DNA from: Spirochaetaceae bacterium
GTDB taxonomy: Bacteria; Spirochaetota; Spirochaetia; Treponematales; Breznakiellaceae
Length of the DNA: 14,963 nt
Assembly (NCBI GenBank): GCA_031255115.1
Contig: JAIRTD010000221.1
Span: 1 to 14,963 of the forward strand
Direction of reading: 5' to 3'
Shown here: in pieces, positions 3,528 to 14,963 of the stretch
Numbering within the stretch: the first letter of the stretch is position 1
Layout of the letters: each line of letters begins with the position of its first letter
Made by a program: the position numbers and the translations under genes
The notes under the pieces: generated by a model
What the model was told of the DNA's origin: nothing
The model's input: the letters and a program-made list of their open reading frames with translations, nothing else
Databases searched by the model: none

Positions 3528-4784
3528 TTACCGGTACCTTATAAGCGGAGTAAGTCCTGCCCGCACAGAATCGCCGACCCCGACGGCTACTTCGTACTTG
3601 TCCGGTTCCGACGCCGGAATATACAACTCTGTGCGGGAACCGAATTTTATCATGCCGAAAAGTTCTCCCTGGCGCAGTTCGTCCGTTTCTTTTGTCCTGC
3701 AGACAATGTGCCTGGCAATGGCGCCGCTTATCTGCCGCACCAAAAGACAGGAACACGGTTCGGCAAGGCGGGTCATAAGAATAGTATTTGACTCGTTCAC
3801 CCTGGTTGATTCCGGGGACCGGGCATCCTTAAACTTTCCCCTGGTATAGGTGATTTTTTCTATTCTGGCCGAGCAGGGCGCGCGGTTCAAATGTACATTA
3901 AAAATGCTTAAAAATATACCTATTCTGAGGGCCTGTCCAAGCGCGCCGGTGTCAACAACGCTGATATCCGTTATCCGTCCGTCAGCCGGAGAAAGCAGTA
4001 TTGATTCATCCTGAATGATCTTGCGCGCAGGGTTGCGGAAAAATGAAAGCATCCATAACAAAACCAAAAGGAAAACCGCTTCCAGGGGAATGAGCCAGAA
4101 CGCGGGGTAAAAGATACGAGCCAGAACAACCATGCAGAGCGCGGCAAGGGCGGGAAAGACCAGCACCTGGGGAAGTCCGTAGCGCGTCAGGGGAATACGC
4201 AGGCCGCGCTTTACCATAAACCGGACGCCAAGCGCCACGACGGCTACGCCGAGCAGGGCAAACAAGAGCAGGCCCGCTATGTGGAAGGGATTTTTCACAT
4301 CTTCACCAAAACAGTAAACCAGAAAAAACAGGGTATTCACGCTGATAGCCGCGGCGATAATATCATAGAAGGCAAAGCGCCGCAGCGGCAGGGAGAGAAA
4401 CCCTGAAGCCATAAAGAGGGTATTCCGCATACCCAGGGGAATAAAACGGCACACAATAAACGCCAGCATGCCGTTCTTGTCGAGATAATGCCTTACCCGG
4501 TCAAGGTTTTCCGGACAAAGAAGGGCCGAGGCGAATTTGACCTTTACCACGCCCTTCCGTATGAGGACTCCTATAAAAAAAGACGTAAAATCGCTTATGA
4601 TCACGCCTGAGTAAATCGCCAGAAGACTGGGAACAAAGAGTTCGGGCGCTCCCCTGGAAACCAGAGCGCCGGTGATGATGACAATATCTTCTGATATGGG
4701 CACATTGAGTCCCGCAAGGAGCAGTCCGGCAAAAGCCGCAGCAGGGAAAAAATGCACATACCGGACAAGAAAATCAAAACCCAT
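3528..4784 (-). CDS. psd: Fusion of DedA/VTT membrane domain with phosphatidylserine decarboxylase
   Basis: 418 residues with two parts. Residues about 1-190 form a DedA/VTT-type polytopic domain: SEDIVIITGA at 31-40, the arginine signature R113-FIPLGM-R120-N with ASGF just after, and further membrane segments to about 190. After two hydrophobic segments (about 205-222 and 230-247) comes a short-type phosphatidylserine decarboxylase: FFRNPAR (248-254), LSPADGRI (264-271), NVHLNRAP (296-303), ARHIVCR (357-363) and GMIKFGSR with the Gly382-Ser383 self-cleavage site that creates the pyruvoyl group. The decarboxylase converts PS to PE. DedA proteins are implicated in moving lipids across the bilayer, so the fusion would couple synthesis to PE redistribution (inference). 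The ATG at 4784 fits the start of the membrane domain. A start at 4895 is possible in frame, but it would put the promoter inside the gene and adds an unlikely leader. No strong Shine-Dalgarno is seen. Confidence 0.9.
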   Translation of the reverse strand: MGFDFLVRYVHFFPAAAFAGLLLAGLNVPISEDIVIITGALVSRGAPELFVPSLLAIYSGVIISDFTSFFIGVLIRKGVVKVKFASALLCPENLDRVRHYLDKNGMLAFIVCRFIPLGMRNTLFMASGFLSLPLRRFAFYDIIAAAISVNTLFFLVYCFGEDVKNPFHIAGLLLFALLGVAVVALGVRFMVKRGLRIPLTRYGLPQVLVFPALAALCMVVLARIFYPAFWLIPLEAVFLLVLLWMLSFFRNPARKIIQDESILLSPADGRITDISVVDTGALGQALRIGIFLSIFNVHLNRAPCSARIEKITYTRGKFKDARSPESTRVNESNTILMTRLAEPCSCLLVRQISGAIARHIVCRTKETDELRQGELFGMIKFGSRTELYIPASEPDKYEVAVGVGDSVRAGLTPLIRYR

Positions 4785-4791
4785 AGCGCCT

Positions 4792-4821
4792 AGTATACCG
4801 CCGAAAGAAAATAAATTGCAA
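4792..4821 (-). promoter_or_regulatory. Promoter of the psd-pssA-lipoprotein operon, possibly leaderless
   Basis: On the minus strand TTGCAA (4816-4821) is followed after 18 bases by TATACT (4792-4797). The region upstream is AT-rich and lies after the argH terminator. Only 7 bases separate the -10 from the ATG at 4784. Transcription should therefore begin at or within a base or two of the start codon, giving a leaderless message. This agrees with the absence of a convincing ribosome binding site. Confidence 0.55.
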
Positions 4822-4931
4822 TTAAAAAAATACCAATCATGGCGGACTAATGAAGCTTTTGCGAATGAAGCACCAGGAAAAAGGCCCCCGGACATTACTG
4901 CCCGGCTGTGGCAATGCCCTGCCCGCGCGCG

Positions 4932-4957
4932 AAAAAAGGCGCCTGAGATTCAGCGCC
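4932..4957 (-). terminator. Rho-independent terminator overlapping the argH stop codon
   Basis: Read on the minus strand: GGCGC-TGA, loop ATC, TCA-G-GCGCC, then six T. The stem has eight pairs with one bulged base, and the T run is directly attached. The TGA in the left arm is the argH stop codon itself, so the hairpin begins inside the last codons. It should end the argGH transcript and insulate it from the psd operon. Confidence 0.8.
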
Positions 4958-6356
4958 GGGCAAGTTTGCCGCGGAGCACGGCTATCTGCCGCTTTACTTC
5001 CGAAGGCGCGGGGCCGCCGGGGAGACTGCGGGCCGCCACGCAGGAAGCGGGTTTTATTGCCTCATAAAGATCGGCCTCGAAAAGGGGCGAGCGGCTTTTT
5101 AGCTCCGCAAGGCTGCGGCTGGCTATGCCCCGCTGTCCGGCGGCAATACAGTCCCTGACAATAAGGGCAACCGCCTCATGGGCCCTGCGGAAGGGAAGCC
5201 CCTTGCGCACCAGGTATTCCGCCGCGTCGGTGGCCTCAAGGAAACCGCCTTCAAGGGCTGCTTCCATACGCCCGGTATTGAATTCAAGCTGCTTCATCAT
5301 GCCGCTAAAGATACCAAGGCATTGGGAAACCGTATCGAGGCTGTCAAAAAGGGCCTCTTTATCTTCCTGGAGGTCCTTGTCATAGGCATAGGGAAGGCCC
5401 TTGAGCAGGACGAGCAGGGTCATAAGATTGCCGCCCGTTCTTCCGGCCTTGCCCCTGACAAGTTCGGCGAAATCAGGATTCTTTTTTTGGGGCATGATGG
5501 ACGAACCGGTACTCCACGCATCGGCCATAGTGATGAATTTGAATTCCTCGCTGGCCCAGATAACCAGGTCCTCGCAGAAGCGGGAAAGGTGGGTCATGGT
5601 TATGGCCGCCGCCGCGGCAAGTTCCAGGGCAAAGTCCCGGTCGGCAACTGAGTCCATCGCGTTAAGGGTCGGTTCAGGAAAACCCAGGGACAGAGCAACT
5701 GAATTCCGGTCAAGGGGAAGGGAAGACCCCGCCAGGGCCCCGGAACCAAGGGGACACTGGTCAAGCCGCTTTAAGGCATCCTCAAAACGGCCAAGGTCCC
5801 GTTCAAGGCCGCAGGCCCAGGCGCACAGGTGGTGGCCCAGGGTAAGCGGCTGGGCCCGCTGGAGATGGGTATAGCCCGGCATGACAGCGCCTGAATGCTT
5901 TTCGGCAAGCTCAAGCAGGGTGTTTATGGCCTGGGTAAGGACCGCGCAGAGATGGGGAAGCGTCCGTTTGAGATAAAGCCGCACATCAAGGGCAACCTGG
6001 TCGTTCCGGCTCCTCCCCGCGTGGACCATACGGCCCTCATCCCCCAGCCGGGAAGTGAGAATTCCTTCTATAAAAGAATGAATATCCTCGGCATCTTCGT
6101 CAATAACAAGGGAACCTGATTCGAGCTCTCCGGCTATGCGTTCCAGTTCGGCGTCCAGAGCGGACGCGGTTTCGCTTGTAATAATGCCCTGCCTGCCAAG
6201 CATGGCCACATGGGCGCGGCTTCCCCGTATGTCGTCCTGGGCAAGAACCTTGTCAACGCCTATTGAAGCCTGAAAAGCAAAGGCTTCTCTGCCGGGCTTT
6301 TCCGAAAGCCGCCCTGCCCAGAGTACCGAAGCTTCCTGCTGCTCTGTCCCTTTCAT
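4950..6356 (-). CDS. argH: Argininosuccinate lyase
   Basis: 468 residues, normal length for the family. It splits argininosuccinate into arginine and fumarate, the last step of arginine synthesis. Signatures are present in order: SRNDQVALD (116-124), GYTHLQRAQP (161-170) and the superfamily loop GSSIMPQKKNPD (284-295) with the catalytic serine. The family core begins at about residue 11 (VLWAGRLSEKPG). The first ten residues, MKGTEQQEAS, come partly from the last copy of a 17-bp tandem repeat that fills the space after argG. The ATG at 6356 is the final start codon of that repeat chain, with AAGGGGA seven bases upstream, and it overlaps the TGA of the preceding mini-ORF. It is co-transcribed with argG and ends in an intrinsic terminator. 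Confidence 0.96.
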   Translation of the reverse strand: MKGTEQQEASVLWAGRLSEKPGREAFAFQASIGVDKVLAQDDIRGSRAHVAMLGRQGIITSETASALDAELERIAGELESGSLVIDEDAEDIHSFIEGILTSRLGDEGRMVHAGRSRNDQVALDVRLYLKRTLPHLCAVLTQAINTLLELAEKHSGAVMPGYTHLQRAQPLTLGHHLCAWACGLERDLGRFEDALKRLDQCPLGSGALAGSSLPLDRNSVALSLGFPEPTLNAMDSVADRDFALELAAAAAITMTHLSRFCEDLVIWASEEFKFITMADAWSTGSSIMPQKKNPDFAELVRGKAGRTGGNLMTLLVLLKGLPYAYDKDLQEDKEALFDSLDTVSQCLGIFSGMMKQLEFNTGRMEAALEGGFLEATDAAEYLVRKGLPFRRAHEAVALIVRDCIAAGQRGIASRSLAELKSRSPLFEADLYEAIKPASCVAARSLPGGPAPSEVKRQIAVLRGKLARR

Positions 6357-6506
6357 AGCTCTGTCCCCTTCACGGCTCTGTCCCTTTCATAGCTCTGTCC
6401 CTCTTATGACTCTGTTCCTTTCATGGCTCTGTTCCCCAGCCCTGTCCCCTTCATAGCTCTGTCCCCGTTCTGCCCTTCACAGCTCTGTCCCCGTTCTGCC
6501 CACACC
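6341..6506 (-). repeat. 17-bp tandem repeat forming a chain of overlapping mini-ORFs before argH
   Basis: Minus-strand consensus TATGAAAGGGACAGAGC. There are about nine units: seven 17-mers or close variants, one shortened to 13, and two lengthened to 25-26 by an internal insertion of about nine bases. The array covers the whole argG-argH gap and the first codons of argH. Each unit contains a purine-rich GGGGA/AGGGA and a start codon 7 bases later. Reading gives GTG 6503 to TGA 6477, GTG 6480 to TGA 6451, ATG 6454 to TAA 6404, ATG 6390 to TGA 6370, and GTG 6373 to TGA 6353, then argH ATG 6356. Four of the five junctions are 4-base RTGA overlaps. The short peptides are variants of MKGTEL. Confidence 0.9.
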
Positions 6507-7736
6507 TTACTTTTTGGAGTTTTTTGGGCCGGGAGAGGCTTCGTTTTCCATTAAGGCCCTGACCAGCACGGGGAGGCCGTATAGTTTGATAAAACCTTTG
6601 GCGTCGGCGTGGTTGTACAATTCGCCGGTGGTAAAACTCGCTATGCTGGCGTTGTACAGTGAGTAGGGAGACTTGACGCCCGCCGAGCGTATGGAACCTT
6701 TGTAGAGCTTGAGTTTTACGCTGCCGCTGACAGTTTTCTGGGTTATGTCAACAAAGGCGGAAAGGGCTTCCCTGAGGGGGGTAAACCAGAGGCCGCCGTA
6801 AATCAGTTCGGCCATTTTCTGCCCGGCAAGCTGCTTAAAGGCATAGGTTTCGCGGTCAAGGCAGATGTGTTCCAGTTCCTGATGAGCGTAGTACAGTATG
6901 CTGCCCCCGGGAGTCTCATACACGCCCCGGCTCTTCATTCCGACCACCCGGTTTTCGACCAGGTCTACAAGGCCAACGCCATGAGCGCCGCCCAGGACAT
7001 TAAGGGTCTTGATGAGGCTTACGCCGTCAAGTTTTTTGCCGTTGACCGATATGGGGATGCCTTTTTCAAATTCAATTTCGACATATTCTCCTTTGCCGGG
7101 TGCTTTTTCGGGCGGAACCGTCATCTTGAGCATGTGGGAAAGATCCGGCTCGTTGGCCGGGTCCTCAAGTTCGAGTCCTTCATGGGAAACGTGCCAGAGA
7201 TTGTCGTCTCTGCTGTAGGAATCCTTTTTTTTCATCGGGACAGGAATATTCCGCCGTTTTAGGTAGCGTATTTCTTCTTCCCGGCTCTTGAGTTTCCAGG
7301 TCCGCCAGGGGGCGATGATTTCGAGATCTGGTGCCAGGGCCATAACGCCCAGATCAAAACGGACCTGGTCATTGCCCTTGCCGGTAGCGCCGTGGGCAAT
7401 CGCCTGGGCCTTGACCCTGCGGGCTTCGTTGACAAGAACCTTGGCAATCAGGGGCCGGGCGGTCGAAGTCCCCAAAAGGTATTTGTCCTCATACAGGGCA
7501 TTGGCCTTGAGAGCGGGCCAGACATATTCTTCGACATATTCTTTTTTTACATCAGCGACAACACATTCCGCCGCGCCGGTATCCAGGGCCCGCTGCTTGA
7601 TTGTTTTCCAGTCAGCCTCCTGCCCCACATCCACACAAACCGCCGTAATATCGCAGTCATGATTTTCTTTAAGCCAGGGAATAATCACCGTGGTATCAAG
7701 TCCGCCTGAATACGCCAGGACCACTTTCTTCTTCAT
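6507..7736 (-). CDS. argG: Argininosuccinate synthase
   Basis: 409 residues. It joins citrulline and aspartate with ATP to form argininosuccinate. The N-terminal PP-loop AYSGGLDT is at 8-15. Further family stretches include [12 protein letters not shown] and [18 protein letters not shown]; the C-terminus KNSKK is basic. The ATG at 7736 was chosen because AAGGAG (7743-7748) lies 6 bases upstream and the PP-loop is at the usual distance. An ATG 21 bases further upstream is in frame but would place the start before that site. It is the first gene of the argG-argH unit, preceded by a 215-base control region with promoter, palindrome and terminator-like hairpin. Confidence 0.97.
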
Positions 7737-7858: not shown

Positions 7859-7887
7859 ATTATCCCCTGACATTCTTAGAATGTCAG
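7859..7887 (-). promoter_or_regulatory. argG promoter
   Basis: On the minus strand CTGACA (7882-7887) is followed after 17 bases by GATAAT (7859-7864). Both hexamers match sigma-70 consensus in five of six positions. It predicts a leader of about 115 bases to argG. The -35 hexamer and most of the spacer are inside the palindrome at 7867-7887. A second TATAAT at 7898-7903 has only a weak -35. Confidence 0.55.
7867..7887. promoter_or_regulatory. Perfect palindrome over the argG promoter (candidate operator)
   Basis: Ten-base arms CTGACATTCT and AGAATGTCAG flank a single central T with no mismatch. No T run follows on either strand, so it does not look like a terminator. Its position over -35 and spacer is classical for a repressor site. 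Its sequence is not an obvious ARG box of the Escherichia or Bacillus type, so the regulator is unknown; arginine control is an inference from the downstream genes. Confidence 0.55.
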
Positions 7888-7905
7888 AGAATTCCGATTA
7901 TAATT

Positions 7906-7947
7906 GTTTGCCAGTCAAAGAATTAACTAATTCATTGCCTGACAAAC
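7906..7947. repeat. Long imperfect inverted repeat after the EndoQ-UvrD gene
   Basis: Two 20-base arms (7906-7925 and 7928-7947) match at 17 of 20 positions when one is reversed and complemented, separated by AC. It starts five bases after the helicase stop codon. No T run follows, so it is not a standard terminator. It may protect the 3' end of the helicase message or serve as a second protein-binding site upstream of argG. Confidence 0.5.
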
Positions 7948-7951
7948 TTAA

Positions 7952-10900
7952 CTATGGAGTATAAAAAAGTTCTCCCTGGGGGTCTTTTTTCCCGGGGCTT
8001 CCGGCCTTGATGATGGGCACCAGTTTTTCGAGTTCGTCCAGAAAACGGCTGGGCCTTCCTTTTAACAGCCTGCCCCGGAAATGCCGCGACATGGCCCAGG
8101 AGAGGTTCAGCCCCTTGCGGGCTCTGGTCATGGCCACATAGAGGAGGCGCTTTTCTTCTTCTATATCTACTTCCTGTGAATCGTAGAGGGTAAAGGGCAC
8201 TATGCCTTCTTCAAGTCCGGGGACAAATACATAGTCGAACTCAAGGCCCTTTGAAGCGTGCATGGTCAGGAGGGAGACGCCTTTTGCCGGGGGCAGATTG
8301 AAGGGTATCTCTTCGCGCTGTTCGGCGCTGTCGTTGTACTCATAGGGTATGCCGTGGTCCTCAAGGGCCTTGATAAAAGGCGCTGCCATGACTCCGGCAC
8401 GGAACAGTATGGCGCAGTCCTCAGGCGCGGCTTCGCCTGAACCGGCGGCGTTTGAGTCTATGGCGAAAAATGAAGCGCCGCCTATGAGGGCCGAGATGCG
8501 CCGGGCTATGCCTTCGGCCTCGGCCTTGTCTGTCGCGTAAGCGGCGCGGAAAAGTTCCACCGCCTCGCCCGATCCCGCCATTTCCCGGCCGGAGAGCAGA
8601 CCCGCGGCCTGTATGATGGGAAGGGCGCAGCGGAAACTTCGGGTAAGTTCAAAGCGGACGGCGTCAGGATAGTCTTCGGGAAAGCGGTCGATAAAGCGTT
8701 TGTCGGAACCCCTAAAGCCGTAAATGGCCTGATTGGGGTCGCCGATTACCCAAAGAGACGGGCCTCCGCTTTGGGTTGGGGCAAGAAGCCGTATCAGAAT
8801 GTACTGGGCAAAATTAACATCCTGATATTCGTCTACAAAAATAAAACGGAACTGTTCCTGATAACGGGCCAGTATATTTTCATGGCGCAAAAAAAGTCTT
8901 GCCAGGCCCGATATGAGGTCGTCATAGTCAAGCTGCGCCAGGGCGCGGAGCCGTTTCCGGTATTCGCCATAGAGCGCCTCCATCGCGGGCAGAGGAGCGG
9001 TAAGGCCGAAACTTCCGGCAAAAGATTGAAGCAATTCCCGGAAGCCGCTGTCAGACGCGTCAAAGGGCGGTTCTGTTTCGCCGGGAAGTAGCAGATAACG
9101 CTTGCGGCTTTCTATATAAGCGCCGAGCTTCCGGGGCCGTATTTTCTTTGCGCCGTCCCCGCCTGCGGAAAAAGCCCCGCATAGCTCCGCAAGCAGGGCG
9201 TCCCGTTCTTCTTCTCCGATGATGGAAAAATCAGCAGGAAGCCCCGCCGCCTTTGCTTCGTTTCGCAGTATGAACGCGGCAAGAGAATGAAAGGTCGCCG
9301 TAAAGACGCTGCCGGAAGAAGGGCGTTTGGCGCAAGATGGATCCGCGCGCAGGTCTAAAGCCGGAACAGACGCTGCGCCGTTTTTCTGCACTCTGTCCCT
9401 GAGTTCCGCCGCGGCCTTGACCGTAAAACTCAAGGCCAAGATTGAAGAAGGCGCGGCGCCTTCTCTTATAAGCCGCTTTATGCGTTCACTTAATACGGCG
9501 GTCTTGCCTGTTCCCGGCCCGGCTATGATGACGGCCCTGGGAGTTTCTGCCCCTATGATGTTTTTTTGAATTTCGTCAGGAACAAAAGCCCGAAGCTCCG
9601 GCCGCCTTGCGGGGCCGTCTGCGACAAAATGATCTTTTGCGGCGGCATCCTTTTTTCCGCGGCCCCGGACAGCCGGGAGAGTTGGAGCGGCCCGCCCCTT
9701 CGCCGCCGAGGTTGCCATTGCGGCTGGTGTTGCCGCCGGGATTGCTGACGCGGGTGTTGCTGTCGCGGCTGGTATCGTCGTTACTGCCAGGGTTGCCATT
9801 GCGGCTGATGTTGCCGCCGGGATTGCTGACGCTGGTGTTGCTGTCGCGGCTGGTGTTGTCGCCGGGACCGCTTGAGGGCTGTTTTCAAAAAGATCCTGTT
9901 CATCACGGGCGGGGAATTTTTTCTCGCCGCTAAATACCCTGACAACGCCGTACTCGCCGTCATAGCCGGGGCTTATGGACACAGCGCCTGAACGCATGCG
10001 CCTAATCGCTTCGGCAAGGAGCTCTCCCTGGACAGCCAGGCCCTTTATGCGCCCAAGCTCGCCGGTGTCCGCGTCCATGAGTATGGATAATTCGCTGCCG
10101 GCCTTTTCTATAAGGTCTGAATACAGGCCGCTGACTTTTTTTGACGACGGCCCCGATCCGGTAATTTCGCCTAACAGTTCGTGAAGTGGTATGAGCGAAT
10201 AATAGGGGTTTGCATTGGCCTGCCTTGATTCGCCGCTACCTGAAATTGCGTTACCAGAAACCGCGCCGCCCGGGGATTGGCCGTCCGGGGATTGGCCGGG
10301 GCAGGACGCCTTTTCGTCAACCGGGCGGCCGGCCAGTTCCAGCACCCGCCCCATGACTCCCCTGGTGAGGGGTTTGCCGCACACAGGGCAGATGAGCGTG
10401 CCGTCATTCATATAGACACCGCAGACGCGGTGGCCGTCGTAGTGGTACTTTCCCTCCTGGGGAAAAAATTCAACCGTTCCCCTAACGCCTTTATTTTCGA
10501 CTTTGAGCGCGGCGCTGAGGCCCTGAAACGAAAGCTCCATGTCAAGAATTGTCGCCTCCCGTCCCAGCTTTGCCGGGGAATGGGCGTCTGAGTTTGAAAT
10601 GATAGAAAAGCCGTCAAGAAAGGGAACCGCCCAGTTCATGGGCGGGTTTGAAGAAAGCCCTGTTTCTACCGCCGGAATAAAGCGGGTATATTTCCCGTAA
10701 CATTCTTCGATTGAATCAAAACCCGACCTCGAGCCAAGCACCGAAAACCAGGGCGTCCAGATATGGGCCGGAATCAGGAGGGCCCGTTCGTCGGCGTCAA
10801 GGAGCATGGCAAGTAAATCACCTGAATCTACGCCCAGTATGGGCCTGCCGTCTGAACGTATATTGCCGGTCTTTTCGAGCCTGGACTGAAAACGCAGCGC

Positions 10901-11299
10901 CGCTTCAAAATCAGGAAGGAGGACCACATGGTGAAGCTTGCGGGTCTTGCCGTCTTTTTTGTAGATTGTGCTGATTTCTCCTGAAAGCACAAAACGCGGC
11001 GGCTGCCCGGAAGACGCGGAAGAAAGCGCGGCGCGGGCAGCGGGAAAGGGAAGCCCCTCCTCAAGGGCCGGCCCCTTTTCAAAGGCGGCGCGCGAGCTTT
11101 CCTTCAATATATAAAGACCATCTTCTGCGTCATCAAGGTTTTCCCGCAGCTCCGCAAGCCAGGCAGGATGCGTAACGTCGCCTCCGCCCATAAGCCCTAT
11201 GCCCTTGATGCGGGCCCAGCGTTCAAGACTTGCCGGCGTAAGGGCGGGACTGGTCGCGCGGGAAAAGCGGGAATGAATATGAAGGTCAGCTATGATCAT
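7952..11299 (-). CDS. EndoQ-type PHP nuclease fused to UvrD-like SF1 helicase
   Basis: 1115 residues. Residues 1-460 read as a whole EndoQ/TIGR00375-type protein: PHP metal motifs DLHIHS (H7, H9), GGGDVTHP (D41), SGEIS (E108), HHVV (123-126), PAHIWTPWF (H179) and SDAHSP (D238, H240). A zinc ribbon follows (HRVC with C293, CPVCGKPLTRGV with C304 and C307), then the C-terminal EAIRRMRSG...PGYDGEYG. EndoQ enzymes nick DNA 5' of deaminated or abasic bases. Residues about 477-550 are an Ala/Thr/Pro linker with an internal duplication. Residues about 570-1095 are a complete UvrD/Rep helicase: Walker A GPGTGKT (594-600), LSFTVKAAAELRDRV, VDEYQD (822-827), GDPNQAIYGFRGSD, TRSFR, LLTMHASKGLEFDYVFVPG and LLYVAMTRARKGL. 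The ATG fits the conserved EndoQ N-terminus. The inferred role is repair of deaminated DNA, with the helicase acting at the nick. Confidence 0.92.
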   Translation of the reverse strand: MIIADLHIHSRFSRATSPALTPASLERWARIKGIGLMGGGDVTHPAWLAELRENLDDAEDGLYILKESSRAAFEKGPALEEGLPFPAARAALSSASSGQPPRFVLSGEISTIYKKDGKTRKLHHVVLLPDFEAALRFQSRLEKTGNIRSDGRPILGVDSGDLLAMLLDADERALLIPAHIWTPWFSVLGSRSGFDSIEECYGKYTRFIPAVETGLSSNPPMNWAVPFLDGFSIISNSDAHSPAKLGREATILDMELSFQGLSAALKVENKGVRGTVEFFPQEGKYHYDGHRVCGVYMNDGTLICPVCGKPLTRGVMGRVLELAGRPVDEKASCPGQSPDGQSPGGAVSGNAISGSGESRQANANPYYSLIPLHELLGEITGSGPSSKKVSGLYSDLIEKAGSELSILMDADTGELGRIKGLAVQGELLAEAIRRMRSGAVSISPGYDGEYGVVRVFSGEKKFPARDEQDLFENSPQAVPATTPAATATPASAIPAATSAAMATLAVTTIPAATATPASAIPAATPAAMATSAAKGRAAPTLPAVRGRGKKDAAAKDHFVADGPARRPELRAFVPDEIQKNIIGAETPRAVIIAGPGTGKTAVLSERIKRLIREGAAPSSILALSFTVKAAAELRDRVQKNGAASVPALDLRADPSCAKRPSSGSVFTATFHSLAAFILRNEAKAAGLPADFSIIGEEERDALLAELCGAFSAGGDGAKKIRPRKLGAYIESRKRYLLLPGETEPPFDASDSGFRELLQSFAGSFGLTAPLPAMEALYGEYRKRLRALAQLDYDDLISGLARLFLRHENILARYQEQFRFIFVDEYQDVNFAQYILIRLLAPTQSGGPSLWVIGDPNQAIYGFRGSDKRFIDRFPEDYPDAVRFELTRSFRCALPIIQAAGLLSGREMAGSGEAVELFRAAYATDKAEAEGIARRISALIGGASFFAIDSNAAGSGEAAPEDCAILFRAGVMAAPFIKALEDHGIPYEYNDSAEQREEIPFNLPPAKGVSLLTMHASKGLEFDYVFVPGLEEGIVPFTLYDSQEVDIEEEKRLLYVAMTRARKGLNLSWAMSRHFRGRLLKGRPSRFLDELEKLVPIIKAGSPGKKDPQGELFYTP
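9711..9854 (-). repeat. 63-bp direct repeat in the inter-domain linker of the EndoQ-UvrD gene
   Basis: Copies at 9711-9773 and 9792-9854 differ at two positions, separated by 18 bases (period 81, which is 27 codons, so the frame is kept). They encode two copies of an Ala/Thr/Pro/Met-rich stretch of the linker (about residues 481-531). The near identity suggests a recent duplication or ongoing copy-number change in a flexible tether. Confidence 0.9.
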
Positions 11300-14253: not shown

Positions 14254-14562
14254 CTATACAGTCTCCCCTACCCGCGCCGAAGCACTTTCCCGCATGGGGC
14301 CGAGCAGTTTGGTATACTCAACCATATGGGCCGATCTGCCGTGGGCTTTGAGGTCTTCAAAACTTTCCCACTTTTCGACCAGGGTAAGCCGGTTAGTCTG
14401 TACAGGTTCCTGAATAGCCAGGGGAGAAGCGATTTCCCTGATATAGGTGTATTCCACACAGCCCTTTTCGGCCAGCACCAGGGGACAGAGCTTCTTAATT
14501 CCCTCAAGGTACTGGTCCATCATTCCGTCTTTGATAGTGAATGTTACTACCACATGTATCAT
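14254..14562 (-). CDS. ABM/YgiN-like small dimeric alpha-beta barrel protein
   Basis: 102 residues. The pattern MIHVVVTFTIKDG, then EKGCVEYTYI, then LVEKWESFEDLKAHGRSAHM is that of the antibiotic-biosynthesis-monooxygenase (ABM) superfamily, which includes quinol monooxygenase YgiN, haem-degrading IsdG-type proteins and many enzymes of unknown function. The fold assignment is fairly safe; the reaction is not. No signal peptide, so it should be cytoplasmic. The ATG has AGGAGG seven bases upstream. It lies 53 bases after argJ and three bases before argB, so it is embedded in the arginine operon, where such a gene is not expected. A small GGCGG/CCGCC hairpin (14581-14596) lies just before its ribosome binding site. 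Confidence 0.85.
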   Translation of the reverse strand: MIHVVVTFTIKDGMMDQYLEGIKKLCPLVLAEKGCVEYTYIREIASPLAIQEPVQTNRLTLVEKWESFEDLKAHGRSAHMVEYTKLLGPMRESASARVGETV

Positions 14563-14615: not shown

Positions 14616-14963
14616 TTACGACCGGTAGTCGCCGTTTATTTTTACGTACTCGTAGCTGAGATCGCAGCCCCAGGTCTCGGCGGAACCGGGGCCGGAACCC
14701 ACCCGGGCGCGGATTTCGATTTCGTCGCCTGACAAAATACGCTTTGCCTCTTCTTCTGAAAATTCCACCGGGCTCCCTTCCCTGAAAACAGCAATGACCC
14801 CTGATGCCCCGGCAAATTCCACACTGGTTTGGTTGGGGTCAAAAGGAACGCCGGCATAGCCCAGGGCGCAGAGCACCCGTCCCCAGTTGGCGTCAGCGCC
14901 AAAACAGGCTGCCTTAACAAGGCTTGAGGAAACCACTGATTTGGCAAGGATTTCCGCCTCGGC
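14616..14963 (-). CDS. argJ: ArgJ, glutamate N-acetyltransferase (C-terminal part)
   Basis: The last 115 residues are visible; the rest lies beyond the right edge. ArgJ moves the acetyl group from N-acetylornithine back to glutamate and in bifunctional forms also makes N-acetylglutamate from acetyl-CoA. Seen: KAACFGADANWGRVLCALGY, the RARVGSGPGSAETWGCDLSYEYVKIN region and the closing YVKINGDYRS, which is the standard end of the beta chain. The Thr nucleophile at the autocleavage site is outside the window. It is the first gene visible of the operon, and its presence indicates the acetyl-recycling version of arginine synthesis. Confidence 0.95.
   Translation of the reverse strand, partial: AEAEILAKSVVSSSLVKAACFGADANWGRVLCALGYAGVPFDPNQTSVEFAGASGVIAVFREGSPVEFSEEEAKRILSGDEIEIRARVGSGPGSAETWGCDLSYEYVKINGDYRS

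Follow-up and report, generated by a model that had tools for sequence, protein, structure and literature searches.

A tandem repeat array between argG and argH of a Spirochaetaceae bacterium and its probable origin in a dispersed, RAYT-associated motif

How does a chain of overlapping mini-ORFs come to stand between two genes of arginine biosynthesis, and does it serve the second of them? The question arose from the Spirochaetaceae bacterium MAG GCA_031255115.1 (1.9 Mb, 74% complete), of which we analysed one window, the 14,963 bp of contig C44. On the minus strand, between argG and argH, this window holds a tandem array with units built on GGGGACAGAGC(T/C)RTGAA (Table 1). An earlier note, made from the letters alone, had proposed that the array could pass ribosomes from start to start and buffer or tune ArgH relative to ArgG; as an alternative it had named neutral growth of the argH start region or a tie to a dispersed repeat family. 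The motif GGGGACAGAGC is scattered over the source genome. In relatives it goes with genes for a REP-associated tyrosine transposase (RAYT), and three genomes of the same genus lack it at the junction. The array is thus very probably a species-specific tandem expansion of this short, dispersed, RAYT-associated motif.

The array and its chain of mini-ORFs

Tandem Repeats Finder divides the array into a part with period 17 (6341-6466, 7.6 copies, 74% matches) and a part with period 26 (6447-6501, 2.1 copies, 96% matches). The last unit contains both the start codon and the Shine-Dalgarno sequence of argH. The start of argG was set by a custom gene caller, and the ORF itself extends to 7757. The array is predicted to be unstructured (z = +1.69), its RNA folding no better than shuffled sequences, and the window gave no match to Rfam at gathering scores.

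Table 1. Coordinates of the array, its mini-ORFs, the flanking genes and the lone motif copies in the window
Feature	Position	Strand	Basis or remark
argH, argininosuccinate lyase	4950..6356	-	Pfam Lyase_1 and ASL_C2; 468 codons
argG, argininosuccinate synthase, upstream of argH	6507..7736	-	Pfam Arginosuc_synth and Arginosuc_syn_C
Degenerate tandem array, GGGACAGAG-type units, 17-bp and 26-bp spacing, degenerate middle	6341..6501	-	Sequence reading and Tandem Repeats Finder
26-bp sub-array (17-bp unit plus 9 bases)	6447..6501	-	Tandem Repeats Finder
Mini-ORF VKGRTGTEL, GTG start; TGA (6453) overlaps next ATG 6454	6451..6480	-	Start enumeration
Mini-ORF MKGTGLGNRAMKGTES, 16 codons, TAA stop at 6406; chain break (13-base gap) after it	6404..6454	-	Start enumeration
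Mini-ORF MKGTEP; TGA (6372) overlaps next GTG 6373	6370..6390	-	Start enumeration
Mini-ORF VKGTEL; TGA (6355) overlaps argH ATG 6356	6353..6373	-	Start enumeration
Single GGGACAGAG inside argH, antisense	5687..5695	+	Relatives ungapped, with a substitution cluster; a 9-mer that may be chance
Single GGGGACAGAGC inside ABM-domain gene 14254-14562, antisense	14481..14491	+	Three relatives ungapped, with one common core substitution

The chain is a true feature of this junction. Start enumeration bears out what the earlier note had described, namely mini-ORFs whose TGA overlaps the next start, with the argH start as the last member. The starts at 6480, 6454, 6373 and 6356 all combine good Shine-Dalgarno pairing with an overlap of the preceding stop, the first of them being overlapped by an ORF from GTG 6503 that stops at 6479. 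ATG 6424 is in frame with ATG 6454 and shares its stop. The phase break that the note had seen is real and is the only one, with 13 bases separating TAA 6406 from ATG 6390. The Shine-Dalgarno-like signal claimed for the units also held up, as six chain starts (6480, 6454, 6424, 6390, 6373 and 6356) have predicted pairing energies of -6.3 to -8.7 kcal/mol; the median is -6.6 in 162 predicted genes and -3.2 at 248 random places. The anti-Shine-Dalgarno letters used in this calculation were assumed and not taken from the source genome. The first starts after argG, GTG 6505 and GTG 6503, pair weakly (-1.0 kcal/mol). Meanwhile, the regular phase of the units says little, since at argG-argH it rests on just two distinct lengths (17 and 17+9) that need to be 2 mod 3, which would happen by chance in about 1 of 9 cases.

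According to the available part of PMC10666635, translational coupling requires overlaps or very short gaps, and the chain offers these everywhere but at the 13-base gap. Six starts with gene-like Shine-Dalgarno pairing make a hand-over of ribosomes mechanically plausible, and coupling along the whole chain may plausibly occur. Given this pairing, the chain may conceivably have a functional role. As far as the accessible text of PMC6728339 and PMC10666635 goes, the likeness to termination-reinitiation coupling lies in the ATGA/GTGA overlaps of the chain and the TAATG of relatives, and stop/start overlaps with a Shine-Dalgarno sequence are present throughout, with one 13-base break. The difference is that here a serial chain of tandem-duplicated starts precedes a single gene, an arrangement for which a thin literature search met no precedent among the papers it listed.

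Three genomes of the same genus, G001, G002 and G003, were compared; by shared alignments, they correspond to loci L041, L042 and L040, respectively. The earlier note had pointed to the argG-argH gap of relatives as the place to look for copy-number variation and conserved unit length; all three genomes lack the array, and their two genes are joined by TAATG. Elsewhere, G001 holds 27 copies of the motif, G002 41 and G003 17. The N-terminus of argH in G002 reads CGGACAGAAAGCCAG, a near-match of the motif, so that a birth of the motif by mutation at this 5′ end is plausible. The array appears to be species-specific among the genomes compared.

The window contains other repeats and genes of note. 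Upstream of argG (7859-7968) stands another dispersed repeat, about 105 bp long and without relation to GGGGACAGAGC, which has at least 38 further matches in the source genome at 79-98% identity. An 81-bp (27-codon) tandem repeat with 94% matches (9710-9861) encodes an Ala/Thr-rich linker in a UvrD-like helicase gene (7952-11299), the N-terminus of whose product we take to be PHP-like. A single ORF at 3528-4895 joins a VTT-domain region to a phosphatidylserine decarboxylase and is followed by a CDP-alcohol phosphatidyltransferase gene. The final 119 bases of the window (14845-14963) are identical to the start of contig C278, which is probably an assembly overlap.

Dispersal of the motif and its association with RAYT genes

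The repeat occurs far beyond chance in the source genome. The pattern GGGACAGAGCY has 77 matches, which form 44 separate places on 31 contigs, against 1 match for the reversed pattern, and the GGGGACAGAGC core has 69 copies against 0 for the reversed control. The densest contig, C320, holds 23 of the 77 matches. The source DNA examined consisted of the window and 30 stretches picked for their motif content (232 kb of 1.9 Mb), with contigs C65 and C270, of one motif copy each, left out of the fetched set. Within it, arrays lie on both strands, have unrelated flanks and show spacings of 17, 18, 19, 20, 21, 24, 26, 33, 37, 41 bp and more. The earlier note had suggested a search for its 17-mer elsewhere in the genome: the core is indeed dispersed and further arrays are present, but their unit lengths differ (18, 20, 21, 24 and 41). 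Two 41-bp-spaced arrays (L011 5101-5406 and L028 5833-5996) end at contig ends or within a dozen bases of them, which suggests that such arrays break assembly.

By the calls of a custom, unbenchmarked hexamer script, which was also applied to G055 and G042, 72 of the 106 GGGACAGAG copies in the fetched source contigs lie in predicted CDS, 38 of them antisense and 34 sense. The other 34 are intergenic, an excess since 90% of the sequence is coding. Where neighbouring copies (at most 100 bp apart) share a CDS, their spacing is divisible by three for 18 of 19 pairs of the source contigs and, less clearly, for 8 of 11 in G055, which is probably explained by selection for frame. Intergenic pairs of the source contigs fall into 3 of 20 at 0 mod 3, 5 at 1 and 12 at 2; a selected 2-mod-3 phase was considered and dropped, because the 12 pairs stem from few arrays. 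A DUF1015 gene (L015 3777-5285) carries eight copies, seven sense and one antisense, several of which are common to G001 and G002 and missing in G003.

Across the order, the GGGGACAGAGC motif is associated with RAYT. Sixteen of 58 genomes, the source included, are rich in the motif (at least 10 copies), and RAYT profile A1 has a match with E < 1e-50 in 13 of these 16 versus 8 of the 42 others (Fisher p = 2e-5, kinship ignored). Eight genomes with a strong RAYT match therefore hold fewer than 10 copies. The motif-rich exceptions are the source MAG, G001 and G018; the last has a match at 2.6e-24, while profile A1 found no RAYT in G001 or in the 74% of the source genome that its MAG represents. 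A PF01797 match in the source genome was rejected as a RAYT, being a fragment at a contig end in a 1.6-kb locus without GGGACAG; by eye, we take it to be IS200-like.

The identity of the RAYT proteins was checked in four cases. All four match PF01797, three exceed the cut-off of NCBIfam NF047646 (L103 scores 79.1, the cut-off being 80), and PDB 4er8, TnpArep, is matched at 2.3e-9. The matches listed comprise 28 distinct RAYT loci, and 11 of these have GGGACAGAGC in sense in the 400 bp before the gene, the nearest copy being 55-172 bp from the start. The L107 locus has GGGACAGACC in its place, and at L102 and L106, RAYT loci of the motif-rich G019 and G048, no motif was found within 400 bp upstream.

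Motif halos and copies inside genes

In some genomes, the motif is crowded around RAYT genes. Of the 82 copies in G055, 58 are no more than 20 kb away from at least one of five RAYT genes, where a uniform spread over 3.7 Mb would give 4.4, and four 20-kb control stretches (80 kb) contain one GGGACAGAG in total. G042 has 45 of 47 copies on two RAYT contigs, 8 on one and 37 on C64, where they cluster at 54.6-74.0 kb with the RAYT gene inside the cluster (68.9 kb); a 20-kb control stretch of C64 contains zero GGGACAGAG. On its sole contig with an A1 match, G024 carries 24 of 44 copies. Against the halo stands G043, with 16 of 96 copies on A1-match contigs and 80 off them, in an assembly of about 90 pieces. 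These four genomes are those scored, three for the halo and one against, with G038 left out. In the source genome, C320 carries groEL (Cpn60_TCP1), and G002 and G003 have a RAYT beside groEL; no RAYT stands beside groEL on C320, where another gene 51 bp away leaves no room. As the available text of PMC8266576 describes repeats crowded near the transposase in Marinomonas REPtrons, the halo as such has precedent.

The halos run through genes. In the G055 stretches round RAYT genes, 88 of 110 copies are in CDS. Two stretches of C64 in G042 (L264 and L265) hold 48 GGGACAGAG in 25.7 kb, 40 of them in CDS, where 86% of the sequence is coding. The genes concerned in G042 include parE-, parC- and polA-like ones, which match the DNA gyrase B, topoisomerase IV A and DNA polymerase A families and whose frames are open.

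We compared orthologs for four source contigs (C44, C98, C226 and C320) and one 20-kb stretch of G055 (L223) by reading alignments, not by a counted survey; the choice of sites by motif inflates mismatches, and several of the 9-mers could be chance. In the cases read, lone in-gene copies that are missing in at least one relative align without gaps and differ by one to several bases (C226 1764, 2925, 3388 and 3589; C98 4330 and 4797; C44 5687 and 14481; L223 4188). At C98 4330, for example, the source reads GGGGACAGAGTA and G003 GAGGACCGGATC. At tandem groups of the motif, relatives mostly align with gaps, and the arrays of C320 differ in copy number between the source and its relatives.

Identity at GGGGACAGAG sites was counted at ungapped sites only, against background 10-mers. 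Between G055 and G046, 11 of 15 sites are identical (background 0.25). On C98 of the source, identity is 5/5 to G001 and 6/6 to G002 (background about 0.21, with 3 and 2 more sites gapped) and 0/2 to G003, with 3 gapped. C320 gives 5/9 to G002 and 4/6 to G003 (background about 0.22, with 4 and 1 gapped), C226 gives 1/4, 0/3 and 0/4 in three comparisons, and C44 gives 0/1 in each. Judged by these counts, the motif is often better conserved than the sequence around it; in other places it is private to the source genome. The pattern agrees with near-matches that are first rewritten and then grow in tandem; a selected signal or simple point mutation may also lie behind it.

A more far-reaching idea, which we put forward tentatively and regard as rather doubtful, is that a RAYT rewrites its own neighbourhood, mostly within about 20 kb. 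Near-matches on either strand, genes included, would be turned into the 11-bp motif by length-preserving replacement through nicking and short-tract copying, and sites created in this way would then grow into arrays such as that of argH. If true, what spreads would be a sequence conversion almost blind to genes, and no element would be transposed.

Origin of the array and place among known repeats

For the argH array itself, the proposed tandem expansion of the dispersed motif would have run as follows. A copy of the motif would have arisen in the 5′ end of argH, a region in which one relative has a near-match. Replication slippage or cutting by a RAYT would then have multiplied the unit, and since the unit spanned both the ribosome-binding site and the start codon, these would have been duplicated along with it. 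The growth would have moved argG and argH, joined by TAATG in relatives, about 150 bp apart. Because units of 17 or 26 bp bring each mini-ORF into the next start, re-initiating ribosomes could still travel from argG to argH. Any use of the chain by ribosomes would then be a tolerated by-product that keeps ArgH made, and no evolved tuning device. The mini-ORF chain is most likely just that, most simply a by-product of repeat growth with an ordinary cause.

An evolved translational relay, in which selection favours the array because it passes ribosomes on from argG to argH via overlapping mini-ORFs and tunes ArgH by copy number, strikes us as unlikely. It would account for four start/stop overlaps at gene-like Shine-Dalgarno strength and for an array predicted to be unstructured (z = +1.69), and it agrees with the need of coupling for overlaps or very short gaps in the accessible part of PMC10666635. 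However, three genomes of the same genus do without the array, the 13-base gap breaks one link, the phase follows from just two unit lengths, and motif arrays elsewhere have other unit lengths. The earlier claim that the array exists to tune ArgH is not supported, given its absence in these relatives and the dispersal of the motif family with other unit lengths, and the neutral expansion that the same note had offered as its alternative is the better supported half.

The tandem units with their indel-like length changes, and the copy number of the C320 arrays that varies between source and relatives, could also suggest that the 5′ end of argH simply holds a minisatellite grown by replication slippage, with no tie to a mobile or transposase-linked family. 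Yet the core turns up again at 44 separate places, spread over 31 contigs, as well as in other genera with unrelated flanks, so that slippage alone is insufficient and can hold for the local growth step only; we consider this the least likely reading. We also regard it as very improbable that selection maintains the motif as a host signal (such as Chi, KOPS or uptake sequences) that evolves by point mutation inside genes. Genes do contain copies on both strands (predicted CDS hold 72 of 106), substitutions set lone CDS copies apart from relatives in the cases read, the motif is more conserved than background 10-mers between G055 and G046 (11/15 against 0.25), and G043, with 80 of 96 copies off RAYT contigs, gives no argument against such a signal. 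Nevertheless, the crowding of copies near RAYT genes in G055 and G042, their rarity in the controls (1 in 80 kb and 0 in 20 kb, respectively) and their patchy distribution over genomes all speak against a host signal.

Which known family comes closest can be judged from the available portions of the papers cited here. TIRYTs are RAYT-like transposases with terminal inverted repeats, some of which share GGGGWSAS (PMC3733652), and the consensus of subclass 2.1 is GGGG[AT][CG]A[CG] (PMC6006769). Our GGGGACAG is an exact fit to GGGGWSAS. Further points of likeness are the Y1 tyrosine transposase, which has the motif a little way upstream, and repeats that are moderately abundant and also form dimers and clusters. 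The RAYT-like Y1 gene is present in relatives (NF047646 in 3/4 proteins, PF01797 in 4/4), and GGGACAGAGC, a candidate for the flanking GGGGWSAS repeat, lies upstream of it at 11/28 loci among the matches listed, in a scan that used GGGACAG and not the first G of GGGGACAG. The differences from the TIRtrons of PMC3733652 are the direct (sense) orientation of the upstream motif and the frequency of copies inside genes. A TIRtron with terminal inverted repeats on both sides was tried as a class and rejected. No inverted GGGACAG was found within 400 bp downstream of the 11 motif-bearing RAYT loci (161 bp being available at L104), 2 of the 11 have one within 1000 bp, at 941 and 861 bp, and 2 of the 11 have direct copies close downstream. 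With the close inverted partner missing, the motif family is not classed as a TIRtron, which it resembles in part. The C-terminal HTH given for subclass 2.1 in the accessible text of PMC6006769 had no Pfam match in the four RAYT proteins.

With REP/REPIN sequences and their RAYTs, in the parts of PMC2817692 and PMC3116915 at hand, the motif shares short high-copy repeats linked to an IS200-like RAYT (NF047646) and tandem clusters, some of which adjoin RAYT genes. It differs in that it has no GTAG-type tetranucleotide, that a lone copy has no hairpin, and that copies are mostly coding and not extragenic. The palindrome with a GTAG or GTGG head is indeed lacking, the 11-mer being non-palindromic and the array folding no better than shuffles, and inverted motif pairs exist (e.g. 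L015 4052/4075). The copies are not extragenic as a class (in CDS 72/106 in the source, 88/110 in G055 and 40/48 in G042), despite the intergenic excess in the source. The Marinomonas REPtrons Ma and Mb likewise have repeats concentrated near their own tnpA, but according to the available text of PMC8266576 these are palindromic REPs, compared with an 11-bp non-palindromic motif that here also lies in housekeeping genes. A literature search for the GGGGACAG string gave no bacterial-repeat paper by title among the matches listed. A non-palindromic RAYT motif halo running through genes is not described in the listed literature or in the available portions of PMC2817692, PMC3116915, PMC3686654, PMC3733652, PMC6006769 and PMC8266576, and the last of these states, in its accessible part, that the mechanism of REP dissemination by TnpAREP/RAYT remains to be elucidated.

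The argH array illustrates that repeat growth can multiply a start signal within an operon while the protein frame is kept open. The placement of the motif inside genes is more surprising than the array, and the motif family is the more interesting object. In this repeat family of spirochaetes, the unit is no longer than about 11 bp, may reach a very high density round a RAYT gene and lies inside housekeeping genes, so that individual events can be followed on a background of conserved protein sequence.
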